Shown here one piece after another: positions 22,713 through 25,341 of a stretch of 37,958 nt of DNA. The stretch covers positions 1-37,958 of IMG/VR virus record IMGVR_UViG_3300037076_000069; one strand, given 5' to 3'. How positions within the stretch are numbered: position 1 is the stretch's first letter; each line of letters opens with the position of its first letter. The translations under genes and the position numbers were made by a program. This stretch comes from a virus. The notes below the pieces were generated by a model. It saw only the letters and a list, made by a program, of their open reading frames with translations. It did no database searches and had not been told where the DNA came from.

Positions 22713-23615
22713 TCACACACTTTCATCACAAGCGATTGAAACAACGCCTTCCTCTTCAAGACGGGTTGCGTCGAGGAGAATAACCGTGCGCACCTGAATG
22801 GCGTGCGACTGGTCAGGCAAGATGTCGATGTGCGTCTTCTGATCTTCGCCAAGGCCCAGCAAGAGGAACTCTTTCTGGTAGGCAAAGCAGGTGCGGACGT
22901 TGGTAACAATCGGGAGGAGCTGAGTGCGGATGAACTTGAAGCCCATGAACTCTTCGACGCGGCCCTTGTACAAGGCGCGAACCTCGTTATAGAGCGTGTT
23001 GTTGACCTGATCGACGTTGGTCAGGAGGTTGTTGAGTTCCTTGGCAGCGTAAACAAATACGCGGTCCATTTCATCAACGTCCTTCGCATCGAGCAGATAT
23101 GAGGCATTGGTCAGCTTCGCGAGCGTGAGACCCGTGTTAGCACCGCCGCCGTAGTTTACGGCGATCTGCTGAGCGGCAGGCAGCGCGGTGGCAGTAGTGC
23201 CACTGGCACCCGTGTAATTTGTGCCGAGAGCGGCATTGATGAGGATCTGATCTTTGAGGCGGTCAACTGCGATGCCGTGGTTCTTGACCGTGATGCCCTG
23301 CGGATCGGGGAGAGTGCCAAGCATGATATGATCATGCTCGTCAATCCAAGTTGTCTTGTCGTAGGGACGCGGGCGAACCCAGCGGCTGAACGACGGAATA
23401 TCGGAAGGCTCAGTTTTCTGCGCACGAGCGGTCTTTTGGCGCATCGCGTAGGACTGCGCGCCAACCTGGTCGTAGCGTTTCTGATTTCCGGGGATGTTCG
23501 TATCGACCTGATAAAGGCCAGCAAGGCGGTGTTTCCGCTGTTGGGCCATGATTTCGCGCCAATTGTCATCAAAGGCGGTCTCGTAATGGGGAGGCAAACT
23601 GAAGATTCCAGGCAT
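22713..23615 (-). CDS. Major capsid protein
   Basis: 300 residues. Position after scaffold, size and sequence (SLPPHYETAFDDNWREIMAQ, then WIDEHDHIMLGTLPDPQG, DEMDRVFVYAAKELNNLL) fit an HK97-fold capsid protein of P22/T7-like distant type. The C-terminal segment (DQSHAIQVRTVILLDATRLE) is typical of the last beta strands. Coat identity rests on context plus resemblance, not a catalytic motif. Confidence 0.82.
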   Translation of the reverse strand: MPGIFSLPPHYETAFDDNWREIMAQQRKHRLAGLYQVDTNIPGNQKRYDQVGAQSYAMRQKTARAQKTEPSDIPSFSRWVRPRPYDKTTWIDEHDHIMLGTLPDPQGITVKNHGIAVDRLKDQILINAALGTNYTGASGTTATALPAAQQIAVNYGGGANTGLTLAKLTNASYLLDAKDVDEMDRVFVYAAKELNNLLTNVDQVNNTLYNEVRALYKGRVEEFMGFKFIRTQLLPIVTNVRTCFAYQKEFLLLGLGEDQKTHIDILPDQSHAIQVRTVILLDATRLEEEGVVSIACDESV

Positions 23616-23790
23616 GTTAGTAAAATTTGTCTAACGTGATCTATCGCGCCTGAGACTCCAGATGTCCGCTATGCGGTTTGGCACTCAGAACAGTAATTCT
23701 GAGGGAGTTACCGGGGCCGATTGCTCGGGGTATCCTAACTTACCTCGTAACGACTAACAGAATTAGTCTTGGCTAAAGTCAAACTAAATT
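23616..23790 (-). promoter_or_regulatory. Capsid gene leader with possible promoter
   Basis: A terminator upstream (24524-24553) implies a new start for capsid mRNA. TTGACT (23782-23777) and TGTTAG (23759-23754), 17 bases apart on the minus strand, are a weak candidate. The leader then folds into several hairpins: a seven-base stem at 23684-23703 (CTCAGAA/TTCTGAG), CCGA-GCAA-TCGG with a GNRA loop near 23720, and CCGC-ATA-GCGG near 23670. A stable 5' end would suit a highly expressed capsid mRNA. Confidence 0.35.
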
Positions 23791-23875
23791 GTTGACACGC
23801 GACGAAACATGATTCTGTTTCGCGAACGTTAGAAGCGTCTAGCAGCGCATAGGAAAACTTTCAGATGTCAGTAAA

Positions 23876-23908
23876 GCTCCGGTGCCTGCTAGCCCGGAGT
23901 TTTTCTTT
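23876..23908 (+). terminator. Plus-strand terminator inside the gene-free region
   Basis: CTCCGG (23877-23882) and CCGGAG (23894-23899) form a GC-rich stem with TTTTTCTTT after it, on the + strand only. No + strand gene exists for thousands of bases, so this hints at + strand non-coding transcription (TTGACA at 23792-23797 lies upstream). It could also be an internal stem of a longer RNA. Confidence 0.5.
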
Positions 23909-24500
23909 GCCCAAGTCGGAACGACGTGAAGAAACGAACGGAGCCTAAACAGCCCGGTGACAGATTCAATACGGTGCCTAGACCGCCACGCGGCAAGGTC
24001 GATGGCATTGTTGAGCGTGATGTGCAACTTTCCGTAGTAATACGGTTAGGCCCGGCCTCGAAAGAGGTGGATGTAATTCCCGTAACTGAGGTACCGGTCG
24101 GTTGGAACCCGACGATGCAAGCAGTCTATTCCGGCAGATTCCGAGGAATGGACCGAAGCTAGTCACGCGCTCAACAATGCCATCACCCACCATCTAGGCT
24201 TAATATTACTTTGCGTGATGCCGCTGTTGAGCTAATCAAAACTATTCCCGGAGTTGTGGGTTCGAGCCCCGCCAAGTTTGTGCGTCTTGTGGTGTAATGG
24301 TAACACGAAGGATCGCCGGGCAAAGTCGAAGAGAAAACGCACAGCTCAACAGCGCTATCACCAGTGAGCCGTGCAGCAGCCTTAATGGAGATTACCGTGG
24401 CGACGACCTGCACAAGTACCGGATACCTCATCTCTCTTGAACAGAGTTGAACGACCTCACGCTCATCATTAGGTTGGTGAGCTTGTGCCCGTATTCCTAC
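23905..24500 (+). ncRNA. Candidate large structured non-coding RNA (GOLLD/ROOL-like class)
   Basis: No credible gene in about 990 bases between the decoration-like gene and the capsid. The + strand folds extensively. Stem A pairs 24001-24017 with 24168-24184 (17 perfect pairs, plus three more past a bulge). Inside it are CCGTA-GTAA-TACGG and CCTC-GAAA-GAGG, both with GNRA loops on the + strand only, GTCGG-TTGGAAC-CCGAC and an ATTCC/GGAAT hairpin. Stem B pairs 24222-24233 with 24343-24354 (12 perfect) and 24215-24219 with 24357-24361; it encloses a tRNA-like element. Further stems follow (GTGCAG/CTGCAC, GCACAAG/CTTGTGC). Large ornate RNAs of several hundred bases with embedded or adjacent tRNAs are known from phages (GOLLD, ROOL). 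I cannot test homology here; ends are approximate. Confidence 0.55.
24247..24320 (+). ncRNA. Permuted tRNA-like element
   Basis: A canonical T-arm (GTGGG-TTCGAGC-CCCGC, 24256-24272) comes first. CAAG (24273-24276) then pairs with CTTG (24286-24289) across a nine-base loop in place of the acceptor end. Next come TG and a canonical D-arm (GTGT-AATGGTA-ACAC, 24292-24306), with residues equivalent to U8, A14, G18, G19 and A21. CCCGG (24247-24251) and CCGGG (24316-24320) close the element where the anticodon stem would be. Order T-arm before D-arm means a circularly permuted tRNA shape joined to the larger RNA through its anticodon stem. No normal anticodon loop is seen, so it is more likely a structural tRNA mimic than a decoding tRNA. 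Confidence 0.55.
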
Positions 24501-24523
24501 ATCTTGCCCAGAGATAAACAAAC

Positions 24524-24553
24524 GAAAAGCCCACCAGCTTGAAGCCAGTGGGC
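24524..24553 (-). terminator. Rho-independent terminator
   Basis: On the minus strand GCCCAC (24553-24548) pairs with GTGGGC (24534-24529), followed by TTTTCGTTTGTTT. It closes the transcript of the small structural gene at 24602 and marks the right edge of the gene-free region. Confidence 0.7.
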
Positions 24554-24601
24554 AGGAGTATATGTTAGCGAATCAGCGTTTGCGCGACGCCGGAAAGTCG
24601 G

Positions 24602-24982
24602 TCAATGCGTGATGGCCGTACTGCGCCCCGTTTCTATCCACGAACTGCCGTTCGACATGAAGAAAACAGTGATGGTCTTGCCGGTCGTGGGATTCACGGT
24701 CGCAGAAACCTTAAAATTCGTGCTTAGCGTTACCGTCACGCCACCAGTGTCCTTGATCATAACTGCGGCCTCTTGCCCAAGAACGCCGCCAGTCGTAGCG
24801 GTAATGGTCGAAGTAGCCGATGTGGAATTTAGGCCATTGATAAATGCGTAGGCATTATTCGCCAAATCCAGCGCCATAGTAGCGGCGTAGGTCGGGGCGT
24901 AGTACACGCGGCCAGGGCCACCGTGAAACTGCGCGATTGCGTTAGCGTTCTGATTGAAAATAGTCGTGGTGGCGGAAGGCAT
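24602..24982 (-). CDS. Putative small structural protein
   Basis: 126 residues, low in charge, rich in Thr, Ala, Gly and Val (TTTIFNQNANAIAQFHGGPG, then repeated TATTGG and TVTLST strands). This looks like a small beta-sandwich decoration or head protein. It lies between groES and the RNA region, flanked by a stem-loop and a terminator. Family not identified. Confidence 0.6.
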   Translation of the reverse strand: MPSATTTIFNQNANAIAQFHGGPGRVYYAPTYAATMALDLANNAYAFINGLNSTSATSTITATTGGVLGQEAAVMIKDTGGVTVTLSTNFKVSATVNPTTGKTITVFFMSNGSSWIETGRSTAITH

Positions 24983-25071: not shown

Positions 25072-25341
25072 TTACGTAATTATCCCAACTATGTCGCGCT
25101 CTCGTCCATGCCAAACCTCTATCCCATCCATTTGCTGCTTAGTGTCATCCCAGTACTCGCTTAGTAGGACCGTCTTGCCGACAGTCGCCAGCTCAACTTT
25201 CGGCCCAGCGGCCACGACTCGCGCCTTCACGAATACCTGATTGCGAGTCGATTTGGTTGAGTCGGTGATGTAGATTCCGCCTATCTTGTCTTCACGAGCA
25301 ATCGGCGTAACGAAGATAACGTCGCGTAATGGTTTGATCAT
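25072..25341 (-). CDS. GroES-like co-chaperonin
   Basis: 89 residues, close to the usual 95 or so. The start IKPLRDVIFVTPIAREDKIGG and the middle ARVVAAGPKVELATVGKTVLLSEYW follow the chaperonin-10 pattern (N-terminal Lys-Pro-Leu-x-Asp, Val-Val-Ala-x-Gly-Pro, Gly-x-x-Val-Leu). The mobile loop would be near STKSTRNQ. Overlaps the scaffold stop by four bases. Phage co-chaperonins (for example T4 gp31) work with host GroEL to fold the capsid protein; the location between scaffold and capsid genes fits this. Confidence 0.85.
   Translation of the reverse strand: MIKPLRDVIFVTPIAREDKIGGIYITDSTKSTRNQVFVKARVVAAGPKVELATVGKTVLLSEYWDDTKQQMDGIEVWHGRERDIVGIIT

Follow-up and report, generated by a model that had tools for sequence, protein, structure and literature searches.

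The locus analysed here raises the question of what a tRNA elbow, with its two halves in permuted order, is doing in a gap beside the capsid gene of a phage. The window, i.e., the whole stretch of DNA that was analysed, is a virus record of 37,958 bp (IMGVR_UViG_3300037076_000069), whose gene content, with a head-tail connector, a major capsid protein (PF19821), tail tubular proteins and a terminase, is that of a T7-type phage. By capsid protein, its nearest named relatives, at about 35% identity, are for the most part Pelagibacter phages of the HTVC010P kind. The structural genes lie on the - strand, and a small GroES/Cpn10-like gene (25072-25341, -; PF00166, E 2e-7) is found among the head genes. 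The elbow sits in a non-coding gap with the capsid gene (22713-23615, -) on one side and a gene at 24602-24982 (-) on the other, and reads on the + strand, opposite to both neighbours.

Anatomy of the permuted elbow

The elbow module spans 24247-24320 (+) and runs from a T-arm through a closed acceptor-like hairpin to a D-arm, with all elbow residues kept. Its parts were read from the sequence and from the match (24256-24306) to R1, a 54-position covariance model of 27 elements from other phages that leaves the window out:

24247..24251 (+): 5' strand CCCGG of the closing helix, at the anticodon-stem position of a permuted tRNA (sequence)
24252..24255 (+): AGUU, equivalent of the variable region, with U24255 as position 48 (sequence)
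24256..24272 (+): T-arm GUGGG-UUCGAGC-CCCGC, 5 bp, loop UUCGAGC (R1 match)
24273..24289 (+): acceptor-like hairpin CAAG-UUUGUGCGU-CUUG, with the closed 9-nt loop UUUGUGCGU and without a CCA end (sequence and R1)
24290..24306 (+): U8-G9 (UG, 24290-24291), then the D-arm GUGU-AAUGGUA-ACAC (24292-24306) (R1)
24307..24315 (+): linker GAAGGAUCG from the D-stem to the closing helix (sequence)
24316..24320 (+): 3' strand CCGGG of the closing helix (sequence)

In tRNA numbering, U24290 is U8, A24296 is A14, A24297 is A15, G24299-G24300 are G18-G19, A24302 is A21, U24255 is Y48 and U24261-A24265 form the T-loop stretch U54-A58; the elbow partners U8/A14/A21, A15/U48, G18/U55, G19/C56 and U54/A58 are all there. 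The first-pass annotation had described both the order, with the T-arm ahead of the D-arm and all the elements named, and the retention of the conserved residues. The order is borne out by direct reading and by an R1 score of 45.0 bits (E=7.3e-12), the residues by the presence of every tRNA partner, and we agree that a D-loop/T-loop contact is likely.

The runner-up R1 match in the window has 6 bits. A structural descriptor of the permuted order, scanned over both strands, matches the window exactly once, with 0.02 matches expected per random sequence of identical dinucleotide content. The covariation count for the R1 elements is partly circular, most of them having been picked with a pairing filter; the R1 score of the window is free of this circularity because the window lies outside the model. 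By free energy alone, a folding programme favours another structure for the region (-33.6 vs. -22.2 kcal/mol for the drawn model without its pseudoknot), and the same programme finds all three arms in just 18 of 38 comparable candidate elements. We consider the module itself well supported, and infer its function from the comparisons below.

A T-arm followed by a D-arm is also typical of tandem tRNAs, and the module might be the junction or relic of two such genes whose outer halves were lost: the 19-nt spacing just fits abutting genes, and the tandem tRNAs of T4 reach up to 33 bits under R1. However, the module scores well above these, and its spacer is a perfect 4-bp hairpin with the joints of a tRNA, stacked gaplessly on the T-stem (0 nt) and set 2 nt (positions 8 and 9) from the D-stem. 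Moreover, a GC-only helix of 5 bp closes it on the outside, CCA is missing and the window contains no tRNA by ARAGORN, making such a relic very improbable.

The 9-nt loop of the hairpin contains a strand with a 7-nt complement downstream, and a pseudoknot is proposed from this complementarity:

24279..24285 (+): loop strand UGUGCGU of the proposed 7-bp pseudoknot
24337..24343 (+): partner strand ACGCACA

About 1.4% of random 9-nt loops would find a 7-nt complement in the domain by chance. The first-pass annotation suggested looking for RNase P or CCA-end processing at the UUUGUGCGU loop; pairing with 24337-24343 is more likely. Genes for permuted tRNAs and tmRNA likewise have the 3' half before the 5' half, and in some algae and archaea such tRNA genes are processed to functional tRNAs. 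These acquire a normal acceptor end, whereas the module has a closed hairpin of 4 bp whose loop is complementary to a downstream strand. Reading of 24247-24320 reveals no CCA, 7-bp acceptor, anticodon arm or discriminator, and a permuted tRNA gene is hardly conceivable here.

Different modules on shared stems of a large insert

What is unusual is the setting: the elbow module caps one stem of an insert of about 780 nt lodged between a structural-gene terminator and the leader of the capsid gene. The insert and its surroundings comprise:

about 23748..24528 (+): whole insert, a predicted structured RNA, not present between the same two genes in most relatives of the major capsid protein
23877..23908 (+): terminator-like hairpin CUCCGG/CCGGAG, then UUUUUCUUU (sequence)
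23933..23968 (+): core segment, identical in the window and L033 (36/36)
23970..24015 (+): core segment, 95% identity to L033 and L035
24001..24184 (+): stem 1, bearing module A (about 150 nt)
24170..24232 (+): core linker from stem 1 to stem 2, 95-97% identical
24215..24232 (+): 5' strand of stem 2, GUGAUGCCGCUGUUGAGC, which bears the tRNA-like module (one compensatory change, C-G to U-A)
24344..24361 (+): 3' strand of stem 2, GCUCAACAGCGCUAUCAC
24340..24531 (+): 3' core segment, 77-78% identity to L033 and L035
24529..24553 (-): intrinsic terminator of the upstream structural gene, bordering the insert

Where capsid relatives lack the insert, the gap at this locus is short. A conserved structured leader (about 23650-23747, -), 36-45 nt upstream of the major capsid gene, is also seen in L001:5859-5947, L003, L006, L007, L033 and many relatives, and is a candidate cis-regulatory RNA or promoter region. 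Profile searches find this leader kept upstream of the capsid gene with or without the insert, and we therefore place the start of the insert at about 23748. The stretch 23652-23747 had been considered as a 5' domain of the insert and was rejected, as it lies upstream of the capsid gene in insert-less relatives too and belongs to the leader.

BLASTN of the gap against the capsid relatives recovered homologues of the insert from two contigs only, L033 and L035, where they occupy the same locus. The broader search, with five sequence patterns in viral contigs, one in genome contigs and BLASTN against phages, returned just L033/L036 (one contig) and L035; the patterns are short and exact, and diverged members would escape them. 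L037-L039 were rejected as members, their matches being chance 17-mers within other sequence. A coding role was also rejected: the three ORFs in the insert have no Pfam match, and the module swaps disrupt them.

Across the window, L033 and L035 the core segments are 77-97% identical, and the sequence between them is wholly different. In the window, module A sits on stem 1 and the tRNA-like module on stem 2; L033 has module B on stem 1 and module A on stem 2, and in L035 these stems bear modules C and D, respectively. The core helices show compensatory changes, which represent few independent events, L033 and L035 being close kin. Module A, found at 24001-24184 on stem 1 of the window and at L033:5105-5289 on stem 2, is a domain that has shifted position within the same element. 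A third site is empty in the window and occupied by hairpins of about 170 nt in L033 and L035, between GACAGATT and ACGGTGCC; these hairpins have a common base (AUGAAGGCUCUA/UAGAGCCUUCAU) and unrelated tops.

The tRNA-like module occurs in neither L033 nor L035, i.e., in one of the three known copies of the insert. The first-pass annotation held that homologues losing the elbow residues, or keeping one arm and not the other, would speak against it; the residues are indeed missing from both homologues, but the two arms are gone together, by replacement of the whole module and not by decay of single residues. The tRNA mimic is a plug-in part and not a permuted tRNA gene, because it has no CCA and no anticodon and its loop can pair with the downstream ACGCACA, and because the two other known copies of the insert keep the core and carry other modules on their stems.

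The insert would be transcribed as a single RNA. No promoter was recognised on either strand, so that the assignment of transcription to the + strand rests on the orientation of the module. The hairpin and U-run at 23877-23908 (+) recur in L035, and L033 has a hairpin and U-run of different sequence in the same place. This hairpin may serve as an insulator of the RNA or as the end of a separate one; as it lies inside the insert, the stretch as a whole may not be transcribed in one piece.

The insert could tentatively, at somewhat under even odds, be seen as a new class of large modular phage RNA, resembling a multi-bait decoy, with a conserved core presenting interchangeable mimic domains on fixed stems, one of them a Y-RNA-type elbow, and with domains switching stems by recombination. 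Like GOLLD and ROOL, it would be a large structured phage RNA with variable parts, and the linkers of GOLLD can hold tRNAs (PMC12286853). Unlike them, it does not lie beside tRNAs and bears a permuted mimic in place of a tRNA. Membership in either family was rejected, as the Rfam models of GOLLD and ROOL find no match in the insert even at E 10.

The Y RNA precedent and permuted elbows in other phages

When all of Rfam was searched against 1.3 kb of the locus, the best match was YrlA (RF02553) at 24253-24306, in an alignment spanning the T-arm, hairpin and D-arm of the module; its 22.7 bits miss the gathering cut-off of 69 bits, and the single-family search of the record gives E=3.4e-4. The fold of YrlA seen by crystallography (PDB 6CU1) can be superposed on that of tRNA in circularly permuted form (PMC11472068). 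YrlA is modified by DusA and TruB, its tRNA-like domain binds PNPase and its basal stem binds Rsr (PMC8394870), and it has been proposed as a possible competitive inhibitor of an anticodon nuclease (PMC7790460). A passage of PMC12282133 cites a report of Y RNAs from mycobacteriophages. The permuted order is thus not new but that of the tRNA-mimic module of YrlA, with a precedent also in phages, and the first-pass statement that no standard phage example is known has to be given up. T4 RNA C and RNA D were considered as such an example and rejected, as neither has a permuted elbow by the descriptor.

The module possesses the permuted tRNA-like domain of YrlA, a bacterial Y RNA: both have the order T-arm, closed acceptor-like hairpin, D-arm, the elbow residues and a helix that closes where the anticodon stem would stand. 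However, YrlA exists as a free RNA, 90-150 nt long, and binds Rsr/Ro60 through its basal stem, whereas the module of the window forms one arm of a far larger element, has a longer end loop with a proposed pseudoknot, and lies in a record without a Ro60 gene. Positions 1-27 and 82-114 of the YrlA model, i.e., the flanks, are unmatched by the module, and the Ro-binding parts are missing; in place of a Ro60/Rsr-binding stem formed from the RNA ends, the module ends on an internal stem. With a cut-off of E 1, neither the window record nor L033 or L035, all of which may be fragments, gives a match to TROVE/Ro60.

To survey permuted elbows more widely, we scanned viral contigs with a pattern for a T-arm closely followed by a D-arm, with no hairpin requirement. 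Among the matches listed, most are tandem tRNAs, and a clear set has a varying hairpin around the constant loop GUUGGUC. Many other phage contigs, and also Salmonella phage FelixO1, have the permuted elbow in their tRNA arrays, and a wider scan of the loci retrieved yields two classes, with and without a CAGCAA motif.

Elements of the CAGCAA class (L051:2317-2490, L052, L053, L060, L061, L078, L098, L110, L133, L150 and L163:671-842 of FelixO1) adjoin tRNAs and are laid out, over about 120 nt, as closing helix, CAGCAA, anticodon-like hairpin, T-arm, closed hairpin and D-arm, with a covarying loop pseudoknot. The motif, between the closing helix and the T-arm, is invariant in alignment A4, whose members were partly picked by it. 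With scores below the Rfam thresholds (18 bits for YrlA), the class is possibly an undescribed phage RNA family; the FelixO1 element, at 24586-24682, lies in a stretch without any annotated feature in the RefSeq record. TROVE/Ro60 was found in none of the 12 CAGCAA-class records tested. A GOLLD RNA (L110:3326-3789, 215.7 bits) shares a tRNA array with one element of this class, and L051:2347-2394, around CAGCAAUU, resembles the Dictyostelium Class I RNA (RF01414, E 0.52), probably by chance.

The CAGCAA class resembles the window module in its permuted elbow and, in many members, in the D-arm GUGUAAUGGUA. Many members have a pseudoknot between the acceptor loop and a strand lying outside the closing helix: the end loop complements the strand 5' of that helix (GACCA/UGGUC, AUACCA/UGGUAU, UUGCCG/CGGCAA), and the complementarity summed over 26 elements exceeds that of all of 2000 shuffles. 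We count this as a parallel for the loop pseudoknot proposed in the window, where the 7-nt complement, in a single sequence, sits 3' of the module and not 5'. In contrast to the window module, these elements are free-standing beside tRNAs and have the CAGCAA motif, which reading of the window finds nowhere within 24233-24343.

The class without CAGCAA comprises three records (L134, L142 and L156), all of which encode TROVE/Ro60. Y-RNA-like elbows occur in large phage records that encode Ro60 as well (L134, L142:8391-8443, L156:2668-2720; TROVE loci L165-L167), with three different copies in L134. These records lend something to the idea that the window module is a true phage Y RNA acting with a Ro60 partner as in RYPER or as a Ro gate, as do its match to the tRNA-like half of YrlA, the perhaps incomplete record and the possibility of a host Ro60. 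Set against this are the TROVE domain missing from the window record, L033 and L035, the unmatched YrlA flanks and a score far under the gathering cut-off, and we regard a phage Y RNA of this kind as improbable.

A putative docking arm for elbow-recognising proteins

The tRNA elbow is recognised by TruB, Dus enzymes, RNase P and several tRNA-attacking enzymes, which makes the docking or titration of such a protein the most likely role of the mimic. We accordingly propose, with a probability of roughly 65%, that the stretch 24247-24320 is a tRNA mimic of the YrlA type, borne on stem 2 of a modular non-coding phage RNA of about 780 nt (+), and that the mimic docks or titrates an elbow-recognising protein. 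In this model, the insert RNA would be made from the + strand between the structural-gene terminator and the capsid-gene leader, its core would serve as a scaffold whose stems carry exchangeable modules, and the elbow mimic, its acceptor end turned into a closed hairpin, would be mounted on stem 2. There it would dock or titrate a protein such as a tRNA-modifying enzyme, PNPase or a tRNA-attacking nuclease. The complementarity of the hairpin loop to 24337-24343 suggests an anchoring of the mimic, by its end, to the scaffold; such a pseudoknot would fix the module in place and leave it no free acceptor end.

The main alternative is a purely architectural elbow, in which the D-loop/T-loop contact would help to fold the large RNA with no tRNA-binding partner involved. 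Several large RNAs use contacts of the T-loop/D-loop type as structural joints, and the module closes on stem 2, with an end loop that can pair into the same domain. L033 and L035 nevertheless manage without the module, indicating that it is not needed for the shared core, and we hold a solely architectural role to be unlikely. The module is best read as an exchangeable arm that would dock, or act as a decoy for, a protein binding the tRNA elbow.

The tRNA mimic of the Y RNAs appears outside the Ro60 system, as a portable part in larger phage RNA elements and in tRNA arrays. Should the modular view hold, one could ask directly what each module binds by comparing which ones are borne by the same stems in related phages, and so approach the question of why large structured RNAs of the GOLLD and ROOL kind are retained by phages.
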